Assembly: GCA_026003335.1 (NCBI GenBank)
Contig: BPHB01000001.1
Location: 1,324,591 to 1,388,590 of the forward strand
Length of the DNA: 64,000 nucleotides
Direction: 5' to 3'
DNA from: Chitinophagales bacterium
GTDB taxonomy: Bacteria > Bacteroidota > Bacteroidia > Chitinophagales > CAIOSU01
The stretch's first letter is position 1. Each line of letters starts with the position of its first letter. Position numbers and translations under genes: made by a program. This document shows, in pieces, positions 2,707 to 26,197 of the stretch. The notes beneath the pieces are model-generated. The model saw only the letters and a list, made by a program, of their open reading frames with translations, searched no databases and had not been told where the DNA came from.

Positions 2707-5109
2707 TCATTCTCTCAAATCCCTTAATACGGTCTGATCGTGTGCAATAACCGCATCCAGTTCTTTTCTTACTTGCTCCCATTGAGCAAACAATTCCGGC
2801 ATTTGGGTTTTCCAGATTTGCAAGGCTCTTTGTTTAACGGATTTTTGCTGCATGGGATCCCTTAGTTTTTGCAGATCCTGCATAGATATATCGCTTTTGT
2901 TCTGCAAAGCTGTTAATAGTTGCTTTTGCTTTTCTATCAACTCCTTTGCATAGGCTTCCCTTTCTTCCGAACTGGCAAACTTCTTCACGGCAGCATTTTT
3001 TTGCTCTTCTGCCCTCTGAAGTGCAGCAGTCAGAATTTCGGTGGAGTAATAAAAGCCTTTAAAGCCCTCGTTTCTTTGTATAATATCTACAGTGACCCCC
3101 GTGGCATCCACATTTTTAATGATCATTCTGGCTTCTCCCCCGAAAGGAGTGAGTTCAATGTACAAGTCATTGAATTCCACATCAGCAGGAATTTTCCCTG
3201 ACAGACGTGTGTCCCACGGGATATGCACCGTACTCTCATTCTCTTTTACTTTGATTGCACCGGCAATGCGCATACCGCGTAATTCAGGATTATCCACCTG
3301 ATGTACAATGTCAGGATGCACCTTTTCCACATGTCCGCGGGCAAGCATGATCCAAATTTTTCCCTGTGACGTACGTGATCCGTCAAAAGCTTCCAAGGCA
3401 TAACCCAGTATCATGCCACCCTTGTTGGCTTTCATACCCACTCCCTGGGTGCTGGAAGAAGTAATAGGATCGCCAGGCATAATGCGGCCCCCCTCCATAT
3501 TTACTTTTACTTTTACACGACCGGTGAGCGCCACCGGTTCACCTGCTTCCGGTGTGTTAAGAAAAACAGAGGGATTTTCAGATATTGCCCCCACCAGCAG
3601 CGGCTGGTAAGGTTCTGTGGTTAGCTCAAAAGCCTGAGGATTGTTTTTGGAAATAGCAACCAGATCGCCCGGCTCAGGTTTTCTGGATTTTCCGGTAACC
3701 GCAAAAAACTCGGCAAGGTCTCCCAGCAGCTGGTTGGAATTTGCATAAATGGAGCCCGAAGCACGTATTTCGCCAAAGGCTGCATAGATGGGAGCAGCAG
3801 TGCTATCAGCCCACTTGTAATCTATTCTACCACTGTAAGCCAACAGATAATCTCCATCACCGGCATGTTCTTCCAACTTTACATACCAGTTGGTTCCATT
3901 GGGATCCTGACCATCCCAGTAATGCTGATCCCACGCCCATCTTGAAATGTAATAATCATTTGAGCTATTGTAATAAAAGGTATCTAATGCACCGTTGGGA
4001 TAATAAGGGGGAAATGGGCTGACAAGGTTAAGGTTTGCATTGGACACATTCACGCTACCTATGAATTGTCCCCTCACCCGTGCTGTGAAACTAAGCGGAA
4101 ACCCTTCCGCATCGGCCATAGTAACTTTAAAATGAAAGTTGGTTATGCTTCGGCAGGCATCGGCTCCTCCGGCATTCAAAGATGGAAAATGATTCCACGT
4201 GGGAGCACCGGTGCCGAAAATCAGATAGTAATTAAACGTGCTGTCATAAGTTCCGGAAACCTGTGTATTGGGAATACACGAAGCTCCTGAAATATTTCCT
4301 ACGGTCATCCCGTCATTTACCGCTACAGAACCTCCGTAGAGCGTAGTGTCAGAATTTCTCAGAGCACCGCGGAAGTCAGCATCCCCCAGAAACAGTGCTG
4401 CATTTCCACCCTCAACCAACTTCAGCTTATTATTGATTGTATCAATGCTGGCTTTGTTTATAAAAACGGCCGCAAAACCGGCGGAATCTTTATTAAAAGC
4501 CTGCAAAGCCGGTAGAGTATCGCTTTGCGTCTCCGCTATAATGCCATAGCTGCTGTCACTTACCACCCATAATGCCGGCAGCAATCCGGAAGAAGAGTAT
4601 GCCCGGATAGCCGTTCCGTTTTGACTATATGCATAGATGGCGGAAATGGAATCAGCTTGTGTCACAGCCTTCAGGGCATGCCCGATAAGGCTTATGGCGT
4701 CAATGGCCGGCACTGTAGTATTTCCACCTTCTGCACGGATAGCAATCCCATTGGCATTGGCTTTCACGTGTAGCTTGGTTAGGGGCACGACAACTCCGAT
4801 ACCCACATTACCACTAAAAACATCATTAGTATCCGGATAAATATTAATACCATCTTTTATCCAGGCCCCTGCACCTCCGAAACCGAAGGCATTCCAGGAC
4901 GTGCTGTCACGTCCCTCAAACTTCTGTGTAGCGGGATTGAAACGAATACTACCAGGAGCCGTACCAGTGGTAAATCCGATTTTTATACCTCCCTCCACAT
5001 GCAGTTTCTCCTGTGGATTAGCTGTGCCGATACCCACATTTTGGGCATGTATCAGTCCCGTGAAAATAAAAAAGGTAATAATAAGAGTGTAAAGCTTCCT
5101 CATACACAT
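2707..5109 (-). CDS. Large secreted protein resembling a phage fibre trunk, with C-terminal coiled coil
   Basis: An 800-residue protein with a signal peptide (MRKLYTLIITFFIFTGLIHA, cleaved before QNVGIG). It begins with the NVGIGTANPQEKLHVEG motif, repeated near residue 100 (NVGIGVVVP..KLHV), typical of Bacteroidota proteins related to phage tail fibres. The middle (about 270-450) is Tyr/Asn-rich and likely beta-structured. Around residues 460-600 is a module with GDLAEFFAV, PEPGDLVAI, GRVKVKV and PGDPITSSS, often found next to S74 chaperone domains. No S74 peptidase motif is seen; the last 110 residues are charged, predicted coiled coil. Trimer formation is inferred from the family. No T9SS sorting domain is present. 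The ATG at 5103 is an equally good start. It sits between two other surface-protein genes on the same strand. Confidence 0.7.
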   Translation of the reverse strand: MCMRKLYTLIITFFIFTGLIHAQNVGIGTANPQEKLHVEGGIKIGFTTGTAPGSIRFNPATQKFEGRDSTSWNAFGFGGAGAWIKDGINIYPDTNDVFSGNVGIGVVVPLTKLHVKANANGIAIRAEGGNTTVPAIDAISLIGHALKAVTQADSISAIYAYSQNGTAIRAYSSSGLLPALWVVSDSSYGIIAETQSDTLPALQAFNKDSAGFAAVFINKASIDTINNKLKLVEGGNAALFLGDADFRGALRNSDTTLYGGSVAVNDGMTVGNISGASCIPNTQVSGTYDSTFNYYLIFGTGAPTWNHFPSLNAGGADACRSITNFHFKVTMADAEGFPLSFTARVRGQFIGSVNVSNANLNLVSPFPPYYPNGALDTFYYNSSNDYYISRWAWDQHYWDGQDPNGTNWYVKLEEHAGDGDYLLAYSGRIDYKWADSTAAPIYAAFGEIRASGSIYANSNQLLGDLAEFFAVTGKSRKPEPGDLVAISKNNPQAFELTTEPYQPLLVGAISENPSVFLNTPEAGEPVALTGRVKVKVNMEGGRIMPGDPITSSSTQGVGMKANKGGMILGYALEAFDGSRTSQGKIWIMLARGHVEKVHPDIVHQVDNPELRGMRIAGAIKVKENESTVHIPWDTRLSGKIPADVEFNDLYIELTPFGGEARMIIKNVDATGVTVDIIQRNEGFKGFYYSTEILTAALQRAEEQKNAAVKKFASSEEREAYAKELIEKQKQLLTALQNKSDISMQDLQKLRDPMQQKSVKQRALQIWKTQMPELFAQWEQVRKELDAVIAHDQTVLRDLRE

Positions 5110-5280: not shown

Positions 5281-8200
5281 TTACTGCTGGGTTTGAACCA
5301 GCTTCCGCACATACACATCACCCGACTCTGTTACCAGCCTGTAGAAGTACATGCCATCGGCACGGGCGTTGGTCTTGAAGTCAAACTCATAGAGCTTGTC
5401 TTTTTCGGCAACACCCTCAAAGAGATTCTGCACTTCTTCTCCAGCTACATTGTACACCTTGAGGCTTACACGCTCTTCAGCTTTCAGTCTGAACCGGATG
5501 GTGGTGCTTTCGCTGAATGGGTTGGGTTGAGCGCTCAGTTCAAATCCGGCATCACCCATACTGGTCAGTAATTCTTCCGGCTTAGCATTGGCGCTACAGG
5601 GACCCAGTGCCCAATCACCATGTTGCAGTTTCTTGCTGACATCTTTGTTCTTCACACAGTGCTCATGAGGCGGACGTGGACCTGCCGGATCATGACACAT
5701 CAGGGTCTTGCCGATGCCACAACCGTTGTCGCAGGTAAATCCTTGAGCATCTACATAGGTTTCTATGAACAGCTCTCTGAACGATCCACCAATCAACTGG
5801 TCAGAAGCTACCGTGCAGTTGGTGGGGAGCTTGATATCCGGACGACCGGATCCTACAATTTCCACATAGGTGGTCGGTCCAAATACTCCACCCGGTAATC
5901 CGGCAGCGGATACTGTCATGGATTCACCATTATCCATATCAGTAAAGGTAGCGATGAGCGTGTTATGCAACGGATCGGCATAGAAATTCACCGTAGCATC
6001 TTCGACACTCAGGCTGTCATACAGCGTGTAGTGCACTACTAAGCTGCTGATGCCACCGTTACACAGACATTTGGGCTGTTCGGGCATGTTACAGGACTGA
6101 CCATCCTTATCAATGAAGCCGAATACGGTAAGCTGATCACCTAAGCTCACACCCTGCAGGTAGTCACTGCAGCTGGTATGCACCTGAAGATCGCACACGT
6201 CATATCCTGCAATGGTGAAGTAAGTGGTATTATTAAGCTTGGATAATCCTGCTGCGTCAGCTCTTACCACAATGGTATCGCCCGGTTGCAGATTAGAGTA
6301 TGTACCAAGCTGATAAGTATGATTGCTCTTGGCATAGGCAGTAACCGTGCCACCTGGCTCCCCAGTATAAATCAGGCCAAGGAAAGCAATACCACCGGAG
6401 CACGGACAAGGAGCACTCATACCACAAGTGTTATTCTTCGTATCCGTGAGGCCCAGCACCTTGAAGTCTCCGAAGATATGGTCTACGATATCTGCACCGT
6501 GACCATTGGCACAATCAGTGGGTATCTGCGCATAGGGACCCGGAGCATCTACAATTTCCATATAGGTGATAAAGCTGAGCTTATTACCGTTGTTTAATGT
6601 TCCGTTTACCAGCAACTGATCACCCTGCTGTACGTTGTAGAAGGTCTGGAAGACATCCATCTGTGGGAAGTTTCTTACACGTACAGTAGCACCACTGGGA
6701 CCTCTGTATTCTACCAGCATATATTTGATATGCCCGCTCGGATGACAGATGTTACATGCACCGGGAGGTACCACCGGTTCACCACAATCAGCAGAATTTG
6801 TAATCACGCCCGGGCACGAACCGATCTTCCACCCCTGAGCAAGCTTATTCGCAACATCATCTACCTTTATGCAGTAGTTCTTGTTGCTTGTATTACACAT
6901 AGACACGCGATCGAGCGCGGAGCCACAGCGTACATCTACCACATTCACCGTATGACTACCATACCCGATGCATCCGTTTGCACTGGTTACGGTGAGGTAG
7001 TAAGTAGTGGTAACCTGCGGAGCAACAATGATAGTCGGGGTAGTATCGCCTGTGCTCCACTGATAAGTGTAAGGTGGCAACGCACCTGTAACATTGGTAG
7101 TAATCTGGGCTACGTTTTCAGGATAATAGCCATATGCAACAGTCTGATCAGCACAGATACCCAGATCAAGCGGGTCGGGCTGCGTCAGCGTGATGGATGT
7201 ATCAATGGAGCACCCGTTAGCATCGGTAATGGTGACATAGTAGGTACCAGCCCAGATGTTTGTCAGGTCTTCCACATTGGCATTGAACGGTCCGCCTGTA
7301 CCCAGAGTAGTAAATACCTGGGTTGTGGTTTTCACGAAGCTATAGGAGATGGCATCCACTTCAAAGTCAGGCGAAGCATTTGACTCAATCCGCACATAGC
7401 GTGTCGGGATGGTGGTCACAAAGGTCTGATTGAAGTAGGTTTCCGTTGTGGTACTTACCGGGGCACCATTGGTTGCAAACGCCACTCCATCTGAAGATTC
7501 AGCAACTTTCATTACGGAGGTACCGGATTGTCCTGGTTTCTGTCTCCAACGAATTGTGTAGGTCGTACCCGCAGGCAATTCATCATCCAGCTCAAATACA
7601 CAACGGTCTCCGATTTGTTCCCATCGAGCACCATAATTATCAGGTGCACCTGTAACCTTTACGCTATTATAAACGTTGCATCCTACACACCCGCCATTTC
7701 CATCACTGCTGCTGCTATGGCTGCTGCTGCTGCTGCTGTTACCACCACTAAAGGGGTTGATGGCGTAGCCGCTTACCGGAGTATTGGTCACAATAGTGTC
7801 TACCACAATGATAACACTATCGGGGCCGGTCCACTGATAGGTGTAGGGCTCACACATGGCACCGCCCGTTACATCCAGATTAATGGAACCATCACTGGCA
7901 CCATAGCAGCTTACATTAAATCCACTTGAATAGGTGGGGCTGCTCAGGTCGGTTACTACAAGCGGATTAGGTTGCTGCAGGTTAAATAACAGCATTACCG
8001 TGCAGTTGTTTTGATCTTTAATTACAACACGGTAGGAGCCCGGGCCGAGGCCGGTTTGGTCTTCTGCACCAGGGGTAAGGCCTGAACCATTAGGCGTTGT
8101 CCATGTATAGGTGTATGGACCACATCCTCCGTTTACTGAGACATCAATACTGCCGTCATTAGCTCCATAGCAGGATATTTGATACCCACACTCGTATTCG

Positions 8201-11200
8201 GAAACTATCGCTGTAGCCAAGAGAGCATCCGGCTCGGTGAGCGTAATGCATCCGCTTGCTGACTGTCCATTACCGGGGTAGCCCTGTAATCTGGAGTCCG
8301 TAACCGTATAGCAGTATTGCCCAGGACCGAGACCACTGATATCTTCTGTTGTGGCGGAGAAGCCATTAGGCCCTGTCCAGGTAAAGGTATAAGGTAGGCA
8401 GGCTCCGTTTACAGTAAGGTCAATGGAACCATCATTGGCACCGTTACAGCTAATGTTGTATCCGCAGGCAAACTGGGAAGTGGTATGGGATACTACCAGC
8501 GGGGTCGGATCTACATTGACCACGAAGTTGCACACCGCAGTGTTGCCGGACGGATCAACCGCTACGTAGTTTACCGCATAAGAACCCGGATCCACATCAA
8601 ACTCATCACCCGGCAGATAATTGCTAGTAAGCGTGTAAGAGCAATTGTCAGAAGCCGTAGGTGGAGTCCAGAATACCTGCGGGTTGCAATCACTAGGATC
8701 TGCTATCACGTTAATGTCAGATGGGCAGTTATAGATAACCGGATCTTCATCATCCGTAATCAGGATAGACTGGGCACAGCTGGCCTGATTGCCACTGGTA
8801 TCTACTACAGTCCAAACCACAGTAGTAACACCTACGTCATAGGTATCCGAGGCATCACTTGTTCCGTTATAGTCATTGGTGACTGATGCAATTACACAGT
8901 TATCTCCTACTGTAGGTGCACCTACGGTGACTGCAGCCGTACACAAGCCCGGATCTGCGGTTTGTATGATATCGGCAGGGCAGGTAATCGTAGGCAGTTC
9001 ATCGTCAATAATGGTTACGGTGAAGCTACAGGTAGACACGTTGCCATGAATATCTGGCACCGTGAAAGTAACCGTAGTTGTTCCTACCGGATAGAAGCCG
9101 GACGGATCCCATTGGTCTGCGCCACCGGGATAGTCATGATAGACGTTGAGCCAGTCTAATCCGCAATTATCATCGGCAAAGGCATTCTGCGGCTCTACAT
9201 AAGCACCACATTGCCCGGCATCTGAAAATTGCGTGACATTGTCAAAGCACTGCACCACTGGCGGCTCGTCATCGGTAATGGTTACCGTAAAGAAGCACTG
9301 TGAGCTGTTGCCATGTATGTCAGTGACCGTATAGGTAACCGTGGTGGTTCCTACGATGTAGTTGGCTGAAGCATTGTTGGTGCCCGTATAATCATTGGAG
9401 TAAGATGCTACGGCACAATTATCGCTTACGGCCGGATCAGCCACGAAAATATCTGCACTGCATTCACTCGGATCAGCTGTCTGGTTAATATTGGCCGGAC
9501 AGGTGATAGCCGGTGCTTCATTGTCGGTTATGGTTATCGTAAAGGAGCACTGTGCGTTGTTGCCATGTATGTCGGTGACCGTGTAGGTAACCATGGTGGT
9601 TCCCACATTATAGTCATCGCTGGCATCACTGGTGCCATTATAGTTATTCACCACACTGGCCACAGCGCAGTTGTCACCGGTTACCGGAGACGGCACACTT
9701 ACCCCCGCTTCACATTCACCCGGATCAGCCGTTTGAACAATGTTGGCCGGACAGGTGATAGTCGGTGCTTCATTGTCGGTTATGGTTACCGTCATGCTAC
9801 AGGTAGATGTATTACCGTAAATATCCGGTACAGTAAAGGTTACCACCGTTGTACCTACAGGATAAAAGCCGTCAGCGTTATAGGTAGCTCCCGTATATGT
9901 ATTTGATATGGAATCTACATTAAATCCGCAATTATCTGAAATGGATGCTGCATCATAATTTATAGCCACATTCGCTCCACATAAGCCGGAATCCGCTGTT
10001 TGCATGACATGCGGAGGACAAATTACCACAGGAGGTTCATCATCGGTTATCACCACAGTGAAGAAGCAGTACGAAGCATTCCCATGTACATCGGTGACGG
10101 TATAACCGACAGTTGTAGTTCCTACTGAATAAGTTGCCGAAGCGTTACTGCCGCCTGTGTAGTCATTCACTACTGAGGCTACCCCGCAGTTATCATTCAC
10201 TACAGGCTCAGCAATGAAGAGGTCGGCACCACACACCGAAGGATCAGCCGTCTGAGTAATATCAGCAGGACAGGTAATGGTTGGATTTTCATGATCTTCT
10301 ACAGTAATATCCTGCTGACAACTGGACTGATGGCCATAGATATCGGTAACCGTCCATGTAATGGTAGTAGTTCCAACAGGGTAGGTGTCGCTGGCATTGT
10401 TGGTGCCATTGTAACTGTTCACCACACTGGCTACGGCACAGTTGTCTGCCGTAGTGGGACCTGCTACGGTAACTGCCGCTGAGCAGGCACCCGGATCGGA
10501 ATTGTGCACCTGGTCAGGAGCACAGGTGATAGTGGGATCTTCATCATCTGTGACTATGATGAGCTGACTACATGTGGTCGTATTTCCGTTGACATCGGTT
10601 ACTGTCCATATTACGGTAGTTGAACCTACCGGATACACATCTGATCCATCGGAGGTGTTATTGTAGCTGTTCGTCAGAGAAGCCACCCCACAGTTATCTC
10701 CTGTAGCCGGTATGGGGAAGGTTATAACGGCTTCACATACTCCGGGATCAGCCGTTTGAGTTATGGCAGACGGGCAGGTAAGGCTGGGCGCCTGGACATC
10801 ATTCACTGTAACGGTGAAGCTACAGGTATTGGTATTGCCATTCACATCCGTCACGGTATAGGTTACCGTGGTTACGCCTACCGGATAATTATCCGATGCA
10901 CCAGGGCCGCCATTGTAGTCATTGATTGCCGATGCAACGCCACAGTTATCTGATGTAGCTGGCAGACCGATTACTGCATTGGCATTACATGCATTGGCTA
11001 TGCTGTTGATATTCACATTAGCCGGGCACGTAATCTGCGGCAGTTCATTGTCCTGAATAGTGACAGTCATGCTGCAGGAGCTGGTATTGCCATGCACATC
11101 CGTCACTGTCCAAACGACTGTGGTCAAACCTAGCGGATACACATCACTTGCAGCGGAAGTGCCATTGTAGCTGTTAACCACTCCGGCCACCGCACAGTTG

Positions 11201-14200
11201 TCACCCACAGTCGGGTTGGGGAATACTGCGATGCTAGCAACACATTGGCCTGGATCGGTTTCATCCACAATGTTTGCCGGACATGTAATAGTGGGATTTT
11301 CGTTATCAGTAATCGTAATATTCTGACTACACTGAGCAGTGTTGCCGTAGATATCGGTAACTGTCCATACTACGGTTGTAGTGCCTACCGGATAGGTATC
11401 GCTCGCATCTGCAGTACCATTATAATTATTGGCTACTCCGGCCACGCCACAATTATCTGCTGTGGAAGGTGCGGCAACCGTTACGGCAGCGTTGCACACA
11501 CCTGCATCTGCGGTTTGTGTAATATTAGCCGGACAGGTAATGGTTGGGTTTTCATTATCCGTGACCGTAATGCTTTGGGTACAGCTTGCCGTATTGCCAT
11601 GTACATCTGTAACTGTCCACACAATCACAGTGGTACCTACAGGATAGAAGTCGTTGGCGTTGCTGGTTGAGTTATAGTCGTTAATTACAGATCCCACGGC
11701 ACAGTTATCAGCCGTTGACGGATCTGCTACGTTAACATTGGCTCCACAGAAGCCCGCATCGGCAGTTTGAGTCTGATTGGGTGCGCAGGTAATAGAGGGC
11801 ACCTCATCATCCGTGATTGTGATATCCTGCGTACACGTGGCGGTGTTGCCATGAATATCTGTAACGGTCCACACAACAGTGGTTGTCCCAACCGGATAGG
11901 TATCACTTGCATCTGCTGTACCGTTGTAACTATTAATTACAGAAGCCACCCCACAGTTGTCGCTGGTAAAAATCGGATCGTTAACAATGACAGCGGCAGT
12001 ACATACCCCGGGATCAGCCGTTTGAGTCTGGCCTAAATCGCAGGTAATTTGAGGTGCTTCGTCATCGGTAACGGTAATGTTTTGCGTGCATACTGCAAGG
12101 TTTCCATTCACGTCAAATACGGTCCACGTGAGCGTAGTTGTGCCAACAGGATAGTAGTCGGAAGCGTCATCCAGGAAGTTATAGTCGTTGTAGTAGAAAT
12201 CTACCCCGCAGTTGTCACTTGCAAACGGGCTGTTCACAGTGACGAGGGCCTGACATTCTCCCGGGTCAGCTGTTTGTACTTGATCAGCAGCACAGATAAA
12301 TGTAGGCAACTCATCATCCACTACAGTAATATTCTGTGTGCATTCAGTATAATTACCATATATGTCAATGGCAAACCAAGTCAGCGTTACAGTGCCTACC
12401 CCGTAAATGCCACTGGCATCATCCGTGAAGGTAAGGTCATTACCCCAGAAGTCAACCTGACAGTTATCGGAAACTGTAGCATTATTCACAGCAACATAGG
12501 CCTGACACTCACCCGGATCTGTGGACTGAACCTGATCCGGAGCACAAGTCAGCACAGGAGCTTCATTATCCACTACGGTAATTGTCTGGAAGCACTCATT
12601 GTAGTTTCCGTTGACATCAAATATACCCCAAGTAAGCGTGGTAGTTCCTACAGGATAGAAAGCGGAAGCATCTGTGGTAAAGGTGTAGTCATTGTAGTAG
12701 AAGTCAACAGCACAATTATCACCGACTGTCGGAGCCACTACGGTTACATTGGCTCCACATTGACCGGCATCTACGAAATGCGTCTGATCAGGCGCACAGG
12801 TGATGGTGGGCGGTTCATTATCCACTACAGTTATGGTGTGGCTGCATGATTTTGCATTTCCATTCACATCCAGAACCGTCCATTGCACTGTAGTAGTACC
12901 TACGTTATACACATCTGAAGCGTCTGACTGGAAATTATAATCATTAATATAGGAATCCACACCACAGTTATCCGCAGTTACCGGTGCAGGAATGGTTACG
13001 CTGGCACTGCAGTTGCCCGGATCGGTGTTTACCGTCTGACTGGGCGGACAGGTTATAGAAGGCAGCTCATTATCATTGACGGTGACCGTAAAGCTACAGG
13101 TAGCAGTCAGCCCATTTACATCTGTAACCGTGTAAGTTACAGTGCTTACTCCAAGCGGATATACACCGGAGGCATTATTGGTACCCGTCTTATTGTTGGT
13201 CAGGCTTTGCACTCCGCAGTTGTCATTGGCTTGCGGTATTGCCACAGAAACCGTAGCCTCACACACTCCCGCATCGGTATTCTGAGTAATGTTGGCCGGA
13301 CAGGTAACCGTAGGCGGCTGATTGTCTACGACAGTGATGTTTTGATAGCAGTTTGTATTCCAGTTGCCATTCACATCCAGCGCCTTCCAGTTAATCGTAG
13401 TTGTGCCAACCGGAAAGTCATCATGGCTGCCGTTAATTACTACACTATTTACCGTACCAATAATCAGCGCAACACCACAATTATCCGTTGCTGTTGGGGC
13501 AGTAAGGGTTACATCCGCCTTACAAAGGCCTGGGTCGGCATTTACGGTAATATCGGCAGGACATGAAGTGAAGGTGGGATTTTCCAGGTCGATCACAAGA
13601 ATGAACTGGGTCTTTATAGTGGAATTTCCATTGATATCCGTAACTGTCCAGGTAACTACCGTTATTCCTTCCGGATATATACCACTCGCATTATTGGTGC
13701 CGGTATAGGAGTTTGTTACGCTTTGAATGCCGCAGTTATCTGCTACGTTAATCAATTGCGGTACGATAAAGCCTGCCTGGCATTCACCCGGATCTGTTAC
13801 TGTAAAGATATTCTGCGGGTTTTCATAGGTCGGAGGTTCGTTGTCTATAACTGTAACGGTGAACGAACAGGTCTCCGTATTGCCAAAGTTATCGGTTACG
13901 GTCCAGGTTACCGTGGTTACCCCTACCGGATAAGTAGCTGAAGCATCATTCGTGCCGGTATAATCATTAACCACAGTAGTGCCGTTAGCCAAACAGTTGT
14001 CGTTAATATCCACTGCCGGTACGCTAACATAAGCCTGGCACTGACCGGGATCATTATTCTTCGTTACATTATAGCACTCCAGTATAGGTGGAAGGTTGTC
14101 CAGCACCGTAACCGTTGCGCTGCAGGTAGAGGTATTCCCATTCACATCGGTGACAGTCAGCACAATCGGATTAGGTGAGGTGCTTACATCATTACAGTTG

Positions 14201-17200
14201 TAAAATACCTGGGATGCATTGACAAATGTATCAACATCCGTAGTTGCCGTAAGTTTGAGGCTTGCTATGCCACAGGCGTCACTGCTTCCGTTATTGATGG
14301 TGTCTGGTACGACAAATCCCGTTCCGGCAAAATCCAGTTCAATCGTGTAGTTGCGGCAAACAGCCGTTGGAGGTGTTACATCCTGTACTGTAACATTGGA
14401 GATACAGGTACTATTATTCCCATTTACATCATAGACCGTTAACACGGCTGTTTGTACCCCCACATCTGCACAATCAAATGTTGTGGGGAATACACTCAGC
14501 GATTGTACTGCACAGTTGTCATTACTACCGTTATCCACCTGCACAGCAGTAATAGACTGGTTGCCGTTTGCATCCAGCTGTATAGTGATGTCTTTACATA
14601 AGGCATTGGGTGGGGTAATGTCCTGAACAGTCACCGTTGCACTGCAGGTGGAAGAATTACCATTTACATCTGTAACCGTCAGGGTTACGGTATTTCCGCC
14701 CACATTGGCACAGGTAAAGGTATTTGGTGCTACCGCATAAGAAGCAATGCCGCAGGCATCACTGCTGCCATTGTTCACCTGTGTGCCTGTAATGGAGACA
14801 CTTCCCCCACCCGGAGCAGTTGAACTCAGATTTACCGTGATGTTTTTGCATTGGGCTACAGGGGGCACATTATCCTGGGTTGTCACAACAGCAGTGCACG
14901 TGGCAGTATTGCCGCTCGGGTCACTCACTGTCAGTATCACATTGGTGTTCCCCACATTAGAGCAGTTGAAGCTGGTTTTGGAAGCCGCCAAGCTAACACC
15001 GCAGGCATCACTGCTGCCATTATTAATCTGGGCCGGGGTGATAGTGGCTGTCCCACTGGCATTGAGCTGTATTGTAATATTCTTACACTGAGCCACCGGT
15101 GGAGTTACATCCTGCGTGGTAACCGTGCCCACACATGTGGAGGCGTTTCCGCTCGGATCGGTAACTGTGAGTGTTACTGGTGTGCTGCCTACATCCGAGC
15201 AGCCGAAATTGGTTTTACTGAGGCTCAGAGTTATACCGCAGGCATCACTGCTGCCATTATTAATCTGGGCCGGAGTGATGCTGGCGGTACCCGCAGGGCT
15301 TAGCTGGATGGTTATATTTTTGCACAAGGCTACAGGCGGTGTAACGTCTTGTATCTTCACGGTAGCTGTGCACGTGGAGGTGTTAGAGTAAGGTGCCAGA
15401 TCCGTTACTGTTAATATCACACTGTTATTCCCTACATCTGAGCAGTTGAAACTGGTCTTAGATGCGCTGTAGGAGGCTATGCCACAGTTATCACTGCTGC
15501 CGTTATTGATATCCGTTGCCACTATCGTAGCTGTTCCTCCCGCGCTCAGATTGACGGTAATGTTTTTACAGATAGCCGTTGGAGGCTGCACATCGTTTAC
15601 GGTAACCGTGAAGCTGCACGTAGCCGAATTTGCGAAATTATCCGTGGCTTTATACGTAACTGTTGTAGTCCCTACGGGGAAGGAAGAACCACTTGCCAAT
15701 CCCGCGATTCGTTGCACATTTAAACCAATACAATTATCTGTGGCTGTGGGATTCGGATAAGTAACCGGGGCACTACATGCATTGGTTGCGTTGCCGGTCA
15801 CAATGTTAGATGGGCAGGTAATGACGGGTGGATCGTCATCAACTACCGTTACGTTAAAGCTGCAAGTGGTAGAATTACCGGAGGCATCCGTAGCACGGTA
15901 GGTAACCGTGGTGGTAGTTGCTCCCGGAAAAGCAGACCCTGACGCAAAGCCGGAAATCAGAACCGTATTCAACCCCGGACAGTTATCAGAAGCAGAAATA
16001 ATATAATTCACTATGGCTTGACAGGCTCCAGGACCTGTGTTGGTAGTGATGTTGCTGGGACAACTGGTGAATACGGGTAATTCATTATCATTCACCGTAA
16101 CCGTAAATGAACACTGACGGGTCTGCCCCACAGCATCCGTTACCCGGAAAGTATTCGTGGTAACTCCTTTGGGGAACTGTGAGCCACTGACCAGACCAGC
16201 AAGCTGAGTCAGAGTTGCTCCCGGGCAGTTGTCACTATAAGAGACATTGTAGGAAATCGTTGCGTAGCACTGCCCCGGATCCGTATTTACGGTGATGTTA
16301 GACGGGCAGGTAATGTTGGGCAACTCATTATCCACAATGGTAACTGTAAAGCTACACGTGGAAACATTTCCTTTGGTGTCGGATACGGACCATACATTGG
16401 TAGTGGTGCCTTTCGGAAAACTGGTACCGGAAGCCTGGCCGCTTGTGAGGGTCGGGCCGCTGGCTATGCCACAGTTATCCGATACTGTCGGAGTGCTGTA
16501 CGTAACTGTTTTGGCACAGGTGCCTGGAGCCACATTATCGGTAATATTGCCAGGGCAATTGATTACCGGGAAGGTTTCATCCACCGTTATCTTCACCACA
16601 TTGGAGGTAGCCTGTGTACATCCATTACCGCTGGTATTATATAATAGTCTGTACCATCTGGAGGCAGTGAGGTTTCCGGTATTTTCCGATGCGCCAGTGC
16701 CCCCATTAGTCCACGGACCACCAGGGCCTGAGGTGCTATATTGCCATTGATAAGAAGGTGTGCCGGTGCCCCCGCTTACACTGGAAGTAAGCGTGGTACT
16801 CTGATTATAACACAAATCCGTGCTGGCGGCCGAGATAGATACAGAGGGATCGGCAACCACCGTCACGGTAACCGTGTTGGATACCGCCTGGTCACAATTG
16901 GAGCCGGTACAGGAGTAGAGCACCCGATACTGGGTTGTTGAGGTTAATGCACCGGTATTCTGCGTGGAGGAAGTACCCAGATTCACCCATGAGCTGCCAT
17001 CAAAATATTGCCACTGGTAACCGCAGCTTCCGGTTCCTCCGCTGCCACTGGCTGTAAGGGTTGCCGAACCACCGCTGCAAATGGTTGTGGTACCTGAAGC
17101 CGTCACACTGGGATCAGCCACGACCACTACGCTGGCCGCTGACGAATACACGGCCGGACAAACCCCGTTTTGCACCAGTGCGCGCACCTGCCACGTACCT

Positions 17201-23554: not shown

Positions 23555-26197
23555 CTATCTTACCTGATAAGCAATCAGGTTATTTTTTTCATCTCCGGCT
23601 ATAACCACATTTCTGCCTGTTTCAAATAAGTCAGCCATGATAAAAGGAGTGCTGGCAGACAGGGGGAAACCCTGATAAATGGCAAATGTTGAGTCCAGAT
23701 AATAAATCTTACGCGCCTCTGACGAAAGCAGGCCAACATTCTTTTTATCATTGACTTCCACAATGAACACCTTGTTTATTTTTTCGGCAAAAGAAGGCGA
23801 GGCTACTTCTTTCAGGTTTTCATCATAAATTTTAACAATCAATGAATCTGCAAATACGAATTCATAGCGGCCATCTCCCAACAGGTCATCGTAGAGGAGG
23901 TCAAAAAAGTTTTTCGGTATGTTTTGTTTCTGCTTACTGAAGGAGCCATTGCGGTAAACTTTATAGAGATTTCCGTCTTTATCGGCATTCATCAGCTGAA
24001 AATTATCGCGTGTAAGGCGAAGACCGAAATCGGTGTCAAATACGTAATCCAGCTTAATGGGCTTGGCTCTGCGTTCTCCTCTGCGGTTAAAATAGAATAC
24101 TTCTCCGTTTTCATTGGCTGCAATGAGGTAATCTTTTCCTTCCACCAAAGCATATTTCATTGGATAGCGCACCCTGCCGGTATTTTTCTGTGGACTCCAT
24201 CCCGGCAGGGGCTTGCCGCTTTTATAAAAACCGTAAATGTTGCCATTTTCACAGGCGACAAAAAGCCGGTAATCCCGGTTCTTATCATAGTCTGTAATAA
24301 GAAGCCCGTTAGTAGCCGGTGCAGGCAATCTCAGCGGGTATGATGCCACATTATCGCCTTTGCGGTCAATCACATATATCATATTTGCCGTATTGAAAGC
24401 ATACTGCAGCTTGGTGTTTTCATAAAAGTCTATCAAATAAATTTTACTCATTATTAAACCATCCAGCTGACGCTTCCAAAGTATTTTTCCGGCTTTGGTG
24501 ATCAGATACAGATTATACAGGGAATCCTGGACAAGTATTTCTTTTTCATTGGTGTAATGATTGACAACAAATACCGGAGCCATAGCCGCGGGGGCATCAA
24601 GCCTTACTTGCCATAGTACGTTACGATAGTCATCCGTCTGGGTTGAGTGCATTATGTATCCGCTAGTGAAAAATATATTTTCATAATAGTTGAACTGGAG
24701 CGCAGCAGGACTGAAATGCAGAAAGTTTTTGTCGCCCTTACGGATATCCGTGAGCAAACTGTTACTAAGTGCGGCATGGAGTATTTCTGCGCATCGGGAA
24801 GTATTGAAATATATATAAAGATTAGCCGAAGAAGTCAGGTTGCGCTCAAAGACCATGTACTCGGGGTCATTGGCAAGAGTCTGATTATCTTCATAGTTGC
24901 CCAGTATTGTTTTAATCACCGACACCTGATTGGCGAAGACAACAAAATTATCTACCACCGTGTAATACGGAGAGCTGATTTGAACAAAATGATGATCAAA
25001 CAGGCGGCTCAGGCTATCCGTGGATGCAAGCTGCCCAATGGGGTATGCTTTGAATTCTTCCAGTTGCAGGTCAGCTCCGGTAAACCGCGCCCGCTCGGCC
25101 AGGCTTTGTATTGCAATGTCAGGGTCAATGGCTTTTACAATTAAAAAAGCATCTTCCTGAAAATTTTTATCCAGCGGCTCAAGCACTCCGAAACACCACT
25201 CATTCCCCATCCAGTTGCGAAAGTTGTCCAGCTCAGGAGAGAGAATTTTCCCCAGCCTGCTCATGTATGCATAAAAATCATCAGCAGAGTAATAAAAAAA
25301 CAGAGCCGTTTTGTAGGGCATCACCCGGGTAAGCTCAATCTGTGAAACTGTTGGCACCGTAAACCTGCTCAGATAATGATCCTCTGCAAAACGGGTGTAG
25401 CCATTAATGATAAAAGAGTTATTTCTGATTTTCAGATCCAATTCCATCCATCCGGCAAAATCAGCCAGCGGCTGAAACAGATTCGCGTATTCTTCATTAA
25501 AAATCATAGGCAGATAGCTGCGTATGTGATCAAAACGGATATAAACTATTCCATCGGCATCCTCACCGCCCAGGTCGCTCACTTCTCTGAAACCTGGATC
25601 ATCCAGCAATGATACGCCCGATCGCAATTGGGCTATTGCCTCTTCCACCAGAAAAGGAGTGTAGCTAATCAGTAATAGTCCGTTCACAAAAGACACAGAC
25701 ACCGGCTTTTTTGCGGATGCAAGGGTTATTTCATAAATGACTTCATCCCGATAGATCCGCCTGCCGAAATCGCGCTCATCAGGTGCTTCAGTGAAAAGAG
25801 CAAACTTTTCGCGACTGAACTTCTTGCTCTTTATGACATACAGAAAATCAAATGCATCCCTTCCGGTTATGCTCAAACTGGCGAGCATGGTAGAGCCCTC
25901 ACGGAGGCTGAAAGTTGTATCGTGTAATTTTATCCGGAACAGGCTGTCCACTGCATCCAACTGATACATCAGTTTACGGTAAAAAGCCGCCTTGCTTAAG
26001 TCTTCGTGAAAAGCCGCTTCCCGAAATTTTTTCATTGACTCTGCCGGCTGCCTGAATTCAAACACTAGTGACACCGAAGTCGGCAGGGCCTCATATCCGG
26101 ATCGGTTTTCTGACATCACCAGCACCAGCCGGATATAAGCCGCTGTGACAGCAATCAACACCATTACCAATAAGCCAATCAGCCAGTATCCTCTCAT
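23555..26197 (-). CDS. Large membrane-anchored protein with C-terminal propeller-like repeats
   Basis: 880 residues with one N-terminal membrane segment (WLIGLLVMVLIAVTAAYI); the rest is expected outside the inner membrane. Residues 35-520 are a mixed alpha/beta region reminiscent of DUF3352-type proteins (EALPTSVSLVFEFRQP, TMLASLSITGRDAFDFLYVI). Residues 520-880 have repeated blades of the type LLITDYDKNRDYRLFVA, GNIYGFYKSGKPLPGW, GEVFYFNRRGERR and GNLYKVYRNG, suggesting a PQQ/FG-GAP-like beta propeller. The protein ends NVVIAGDEKNNLIAYQVR. No catalytic motif is recognised. A periplasmic scaffold or sensor is possible but unproven. It is monocistronic. Confidence 0.6.
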   Translation of the reverse strand: MRGYWLIGLLVMVLIAVTAAYIRLVLVMSENRSGYEALPTSVSLVFEFRQPAESMKKFREAAFHEDLSKAAFYRKLMYQLDAVDSLFRIKLHDTTFSLREGSTMLASLSITGRDAFDFLYVIKSKKFSREKFALFTEAPDERDFGRRIYRDEVIYEITLASAKKPVSVSFVNGLLLISYTPFLVEEAIAQLRSGVSLLDDPGFREVSDLGGEDADGIVYIRFDHIRSYLPMIFNEEYANLFQPLADFAGWMELDLKIRNNSFIINGYTRFAEDHYLSRFTVPTVSQIELTRVMPYKTALFFYYSADDFYAYMSRLGKILSPELDNFRNWMGNEWCFGVLEPLDKNFQEDAFLIVKAIDPDIAIQSLAERARFTGADLQLEEFKAYPIGQLASTDSLSRLFDHHFVQISSPYYTVVDNFVVFANQVSVIKTILGNYEDNQTLANDPEYMVFERNLTSSANLYIYFNTSRCAEILHAALSNSLLTDIRKGDKNFLHFSPAALQFNYYENIFFTSGYIMHSTQTDDYRNVLWQVRLDAPAAMAPVFVVNHYTNEKEILVQDSLYNLYLITKAGKILWKRQLDGLIMSKIYLIDFYENTKLQYAFNTANMIYVIDRKGDNVASYPLRLPAPATNGLLITDYDKNRDYRLFVACENGNIYGFYKSGKPLPGWSPQKNTGRVRYPMKYALVEGKDYLIAANENGEVFYFNRRGERRAKPIKLDYVFDTDFGLRLTRDNFQLMNADKDGNLYKVYRNGSFSKQKQNIPKNFFDLLYDDLLGDGRYEFVFADSLIVKIYDENLKEVASPSFAEKINKVFIVEVNDKKNVGLLSSEARKIYYLDSTFAIYQGFPLSASTPFIMADLFETGRNVVIAGDEKNNLIAYQVR
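23562..23588 (+). terminator. Intrinsic terminator of ung
   Basis: Stem ACCTGAT (23562-23568) with ATCAGGT (23574-23580), 5-nt loop, followed by TATTTTTTT. It begins 10 bp past the ung stop and lies inside the last codons of the convergent gene, so the same bases code the C-terminus NLIAYQVR on the other strand. Confidence 0.75.

Follow-up and report, generated by a model that had tools for sequence, protein, structure and literature searches.

The giant ORF and its split SprB repeat

The window, the whole 64,000-nucleotide stretch of a Chitinophagales genome analysed here, carries on its minus strand a giant ORF (Table 1). The order of domains in its product is an HYR array, three SprB repeats of which the third is split, a weaker SprB-like match (residues 3716-3771, positions 10-63 of a local SprB profile) and a C-terminal T9SS sorting domain; a hydrophobic stretch was read by eye near residues 45-70. 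The sorting domain scores 34.1 bits against TIGR04183 (NCBIfam cut-off 23), which points to T9SS type A cargo, and no RTX family was found in the C-terminal 623 residues at E 0.001 (Pfam) or 0.01 (NCBIfam). Because its C-terminal sorting domain is of the T9SS type, the protein is not an RTX adhesin. It is a putatively secreted surface protein and consists mostly of HYR repeats; a role as a gliding adhesin would be conjecture.

Table 1. Features of the giant ORF and of its split SprB repeat (window coordinates)
Feature	Residues	Coordinates	Strand	Basis
Giant ORF, 4324 aa		5281..18255	minus	Open over 4324 codons; ORF and profile scans
HYR array (29 stretches by Pfam)		~8506..16521	minus	Pfam count; extent read from sequence, ends approximate
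SprB repeat 1, intact	3267-3342	8230..8457	minus	Local SprB profile
SprB repeat 2, intact	3360-3429	7969..8178	minus	Local SprB profile
SprB repeat 3, N-half	3447-3479	7819..7917	minus	Profile positions 1-31, 35.6 bits
Insert, ~179 residues	3480-3658	7282..7818	minus	Gap between SprB halves; boundaries approximate
Predicted strand before Ser tract	3480-3490	7786..7818	minus	AF2 model, pLDDT ~52-67
Low-confidence, probably disordered stretch with Ser/His tract and CxxC	3493-3541	7633..7779	minus	pLDDT <50
Ser6-His-Ser4 tract		7705..7737	minus	Sequence
Domain core, predicted CBM/galactose-binding-like beta sandwich	3523-3640	7336..7689	minus	Profile and model
Predicted 19-residue final strand	3631-3649	7309..7365	minus	AF2 model, pLDDT ~57-74
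SprB repeat 3, C-half	3659-3694	7174..7281	minus	Profile positions 31-66, 39.5 bits
T9SS type A sorting domain, TIGR04183/PF18962	~4244-4320	5296..5526	minus	Pfam, NCBIfam

Elsewhere on the minus strand of the window, Pfam matches lamin-tail, Fn3-associated and CotH kinase domains in the product of a neighbouring gene (470-2626), and DUF3352, along with a weakly matching beta-propeller, in another protein (23555-26197). SprB-like matches are very frequent in the source genome (177), and a 6311-aa ORF of the same genome outside the window (L129, G000:C1:811500-831400) holds 72 SprB repeat matches. Used as a query, the C-terminal region of the giant protein matched 6 of 386 genomes of the order, including its own, the other five over parts of the query. 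The six other genomes of the family yielded no ortholog of this region, either carrying the insert or lacking it.

The third SprB repeat was compared with its neighbours by means of the local profile, a 66-position model derived from 231 hits; these came from SprB loci of the source genome and its family (L083-L101). Both halves use profile position 31, with no gap between them; when joined across the insert, they match positions 1-66 of 66 with 80.6 bits, more than either intact neighbouring repeat (76.3 and 65.3 bits with the same profile). The low confidence of a single-sequence AF2 model of both halves with the insert (pLDDT 44.8) leaves some room for two separate truncated repeats on either side of an independent domain, an arrangement made highly improbable by the gapless meeting of the halves and by a joined score exceeding those of the intact neighbours. 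A sequence-only reading of this DNA had described a third repeat with a normal start and a normal end around an insert of about 170 residues; the split and its two normal ends are borne out, while the insert is nearer 179 residues. The same reading placed the insert midway along the fibre, which is incorrect: it lies after the HYR array, in the C-terminal fifth of the protein.

A scan of 26 ORFs from the source genome and others of the same family, the giant ORF included, gave 565 SprB matches, which after merging of overlapping stretches amounted to 530 outside the giant ORF, 500 of them full length. None of these 530 is split, and the third repeat of the giant ORF is the only split one in the 26 ORFs; the sequence-only reading had called for a search for other SprB proteins with the same insertion. 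Of 264 internal inserted residues in the scanned SprB repeats, 229 fall after position 31, which is the site of the insert. By these profile comparisons, the third repeat is a single repeat cut at its natural indel loop.

The Pfam SprB family (PF13573) recognizes single repeats above its cut-off of 28 bits (45.4 and 38.5 bits). The third repeat scores 42.4 bits joined, against 45.4 bits when its N-part stretch is scored by itself; the 37-position model spans the N-part only and is therefore unable to test the split. SprB is missing from the output of a Pfam scan of the whole 4324-aa protein, although single repeats exceed the cut-off. No domain nested in an SprB repeat is described in the titles and abstract openings of the literature searched. 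In the available text of PMC5712786 the string 'SprB' belongs to an unrelated name, SpRBL.

The inserted domain

Against a profile of 54 relatives from which the window copy had been left out, the insert scores 124 bits over model positions 32-150, the first 31 positions of the profile having no match in it. Because this score was reached without self-training, the insert is a real domain. Its match to Pfam F5_F8_type_C (PF00754), the search proposed together with the original label 'F5/8 C-like', falls below the cut-off (14.5 bits against 28.2, E 0.039); the same Pfam family is matched by 4 of 18 members of the domain family, with a best E-value of 0.00044. A comparison of the single insert sequence with solved chains gave no match, and the family profile matched the CBM32 of AlyQ (E 0.026).

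An AF2 model of the insert, computed from an alignment of eight rows (the window copy and L102-L108), has a mean pLDDT of 67.2, rising to ~81-93 over residues 3558-3627, and places a strand at each end of the insert. CBM29 entries occupy the top 11 of the 50 structural neighbours listed; the best has Z 8.7 and an rmsd of 2.9 over 106 residues, close to the range below Z 8 in which similarity may reflect only a common arrangement. A carbohydrate-binding module or domain is named in the titles of 30 of the 50 neighbours, and other rows include a phage lambda tail-tip protein, muskelin, an ephrin receptor, meprin, BcsB and IFT25. Kgp, a protease of P. gingivalis, is also represented among the neighbours, by its cleaved adhesin domains K1 and K3 (Z 7.3, 18-19% identity). 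Foldseek TM-scores are low, at 0.21-0.37 by query length. The insert is thus predicted to fold as a CBM-like jelly-roll beta sandwich of the wider CBM/galactose-binding-like kind; the sequence-only reading was right to see a domain within the SprB repeat, and its assignment to F5/8 type C is not fully supported.

In the model, the strand preceding the Ser tract is a candidate for strand 1 of the jelly roll and for one side of a two-stranded neck, and the final strand, which is predicted to extend beyond the domain core, may form the other side. Cysteines occur in the window copy at residues 3523, 3526 and 3552, and its downstream flank has none.

The Ser tract and the motifs quoted in the sequence-only reading lie where it had placed them. 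Structural alignments begin at model residues 6-15, in or just after the strand that precedes the tract; since the structural matches take part of this strand as jelly-roll strand 1, the tract may belong to the domain as an internal loop and not be the linker to SprB that had been proposed. When the tract was excised from the sequence, the profile match became no longer than before, and the profile thus does not support the loop assignment. The tract is encoded by (AGC)6 CAT (AGC)3 AGT. The (AGC)6 run (nucleotides 7720-7737) is unique in the 3.9-Mb genome and is the sole triplet run of at least five units within the window; slippage in (AGC)n would alter the length of the tract without loss of frame.

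Relatives and nesting in other repeats

The domain is present once in the source genome. Searches with its single sequence matched 19 of 396 genomes of the order and, of the seven genomes in the family, the window's own alone. A family profile that included the window copy matched 35 of 396 order genomes, 36 of 395 class genomes and 9 of 395 genomes in the phylum sample, one of the last, a weak match, being labelled outside the class; the three samples overlap and contain the window's own genome, and the profile searches reached up to the phylum. Three of the six other family genomes have weak profile matches (31-37 bits) near the N-terminus of other proteins. A pattern scan of bacterial and archaeal genome contigs with four close relatives found seven loci, all titled as Bacteroidota groups (among them Acidiluteibacter ferrifornacis and Salibacteraceae, Flavobacteriales and Saprospiraceae assemblies). 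With the window domain alone, 50 stretches of the genome contigs fitted the pattern and none was confirmed; viral contigs scanned with two queries, the domain and the joined SprB repeat, also gave no confirmed match.

This sparse distribution, together with the lack of a second split repeat among the SprB matches scanned, would be compatible with a neutral and recent chance insertion of foreign or mobile DNA that happened to be in frame. Such an origin is improbable, as the insert retains the conserved pattern of its family and sits exactly at the indel loop, relatives of it are nested as well, and its base composition is ordinary. The GC3 of the domain is 0.425, against a mean of 0.479 (sd 0.046) for 120-aa windows, and composition thus does not support a foreign origin.

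In all, 90 domain stretches with distinct sequence keys were collected, the window copy being counted twice through a duplicate locus; some of the 90 are surely chance matches, since scores reach as low as 13 bits. Read by eye, the relatives lie between TSP3-like acidic runs, near the N-terminus or within other repeats. In L014, L023, L030 and L047 one open frame holds two copies of the domain, and in L033 (G693:C294) the domain is interrupted by one in-frame TGA.

Nesting in other repeats was assessed by joining the flanks across the domain and scoring them with local profiles, keeping the best of 25 trims; a copy was called nested when the gain over either flank was at least 5 bits and the joined score at least 38 bits. 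For Ig, HYR and SdrD_B, the local profiles were applied to the very loci that had served to train them. By this measure the window copy is nested in its SprB host, as are ten copies in Ig/PKD-like hosts (L073, L119, L014 twice, L029, L027, L018, L016, L026 and L118), which are cut near model positions 20-22, a loop other than that of SprB, and two in SdrD_B-like hosts (L047 twice). Marginal gains were obtained for L010 (HYR, +4.4 bits), L123 (SdrD_B, +4.3), L035 (Ig-like, +3.5) and one L023 copy (+2.0); the remaining Ig-like 'Ig2' cases, L009 and the LamG case L031 were assigned by reading only. L043, L103 and L117 gained more than 5 bits with totals below 7 bits and were dismissed as noise. 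Among the best 45 of 92 rows by gain, only the window copy and its duplicate gain 5 bits with the SprB profile. A first automatic split-host scan with local profiles, superseded by the joined-flank test, had likewise returned only these two.

Pfam models did not confirm the other hosts in the four pairs compared: joined flanks scored lower than one flank for HYR_4C in L009 (31.7 against 34.9 bits), Laminin_G_3 in L031 (23.9 against 27.8) and SdrD_B in L047 (35.0 against 38.3), and higher by 0.7 bits for Ig_2 in L014 (14.1 against 13.4). As these joined scores are no better or hardly better, the host assignments outside SprB rest on local profiles or on reading.

A quick tree was built from 63 of the 90 stretches, leaving out 26 that score under 44 bits and the duplicate; 24 of its 60 inner branches are open. 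The nested and non-nested labels had been set by eye before the tree was made, and the clades to be tested were picked after it was seen. Nested groups are scattered over different parts of the tree, with a minimum of six changes between nested and non-nested states, and a single clade of all nested-labelled rows is rejected (p-AU 0.0017). A constraint that unites the two Ig-like groups is not rejected (p 0.377), and all twelve of the Ig-labelled rows cluster in a single group, so that one insertion is possible for them. The window copy has an end branch of 1.01 and lies within no starred set; its placement is unsure, and L003 is closest to it by path.

Cysteines on both flanks occur in 27 of 33 non-nested domains and in 4 of 27 nested ones. 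These counts do not establish a tie between a base disulfide and nesting, as both HYR-labelled copies show the opposite (2 of 2) and the independent pairs, one on starred branches and six in all, are too few.

A broader and more speculative proposal, which we regard as doubtful, is that these domains form a portable 'plug-in' head family that would have entered, on several occasions, loops of beta-sandwich repeats of unrelated kinds (SprB, Ig/PKD, SdrD_B, perhaps HYR and LamG-like) in giant Bacteroidota proteins, as a counterpart of the RTX split domains. The loop after strand 1 in the window copy, at the far tip of the head, would then be tuned in length by slippage of the genome-unique triplet repeat. 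A domain family within several unrelated hosts would be a natural series for the study of domain insertion.

A candidate lateral head and its comparison with known systems

We favour, with moderate confidence, the interpretation that the CBM-like domain nested in the SprB repeat serves as a laterally displayed head for ligand binding on an adhesin exported by the T9SS. The beta sandwich would occupy the loop in which one SprB repeat tolerates changes of length, and the two halves of this repeat would fold together as one stalk repeat. A short two-stranded neck may carry the domain sideways, so that both termini of the domain are at the base and its distal loops are exposed, and the predicted fold points to a ligand that is probably a glycan. 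The display principle would be shared with the split domains of RTX adhesins. In the sequence, the split at the indel loop, the membership of the insert in a domain family and the T9SS type A sorting domain argue for this interpretation, and in the models the predicted jelly-roll fold, neck strands and disordered Ser tract are consistent with it. The location of the domain near the C-terminal sorting end rather than the N-terminal end counts against a head, as do the modest structural similarities, the low confidence of the model of the whole split repeat and the lack of an ortholog in the sister genomes searched.

The nested domain might instead be a non-binding spacer or bulge that stiffens, kinks or sizes the fibre, its nesting being tolerated because its ends lie close together. 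Many relatives lie between TSP3-like acidic runs (25 of the 63 tree rows, labelled by eye), where a spacer is as likely as binding, and ligand-site residues of the domain are not established. The best structural matches are carbohydrate-binding modules, and the conserved pattern of the domain is kept across differing contexts, both of which speak against a mere spacer; we consider that role possible though rather unlikely. If the lateral-head interpretation is correct, it singles out, in a protein that consists of repeats elsewhere, one head open to testing, and the rule drawn from RTX adhesins, that split Ig-like repeats should be sought as a guide to ligand-binding heads, would extend to giant T9SS proteins of Bacteroidota.

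The predicted jelly-roll beta sandwich would resemble that of F5/8 type C domains (PF00754) and of CBMs (CBM29, CBM22, CBM32 and others); unlike these, the window copy scores under the Pfam cut-off and has no identified counterparts of known ligand residues. The host is a standard SprB repeat by PF13573 (N-part stretch) and differs from the other SprB repeats scanned in being split. In that respect the arrangement is as unusual as the sequence-only reading had judged it; nested display as such is more widespread, relatives of the domain being nested elsewhere and split-Ig display being documented for RTX adhesins.

In AhLap of A. hydrophila, FrhA of V. cholerae and MpIBP, according to the available text of PMC12077191 and PMC10865825, a sequence-discontinuous Ig-like domain projects a ligand-binding domain that has both termini at its base. 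The available text of PMC12077191 contains neither 'Bacteroid' nor 'type IX', and that of PMC10865825 does not contain 'Bacteroid'. The protein described here is like these adhesins in being long and in having a stalk repeat that is discontinuous in sequence and a nested domain, as judged by profile with a whole-fold model of low confidence. It is unlike them in that its host is an SprB repeat cut near the middle, whereas the split Ig-like domain of FrhA is cut after the first strand (available text of PMC10865825), and in that it ends in a T9SS sorting domain and its ligand binding is predicted from the fold. Nested display is known from other adhesins, and here it appears to occur within an SprB repeat of a T9SS cargo protein.
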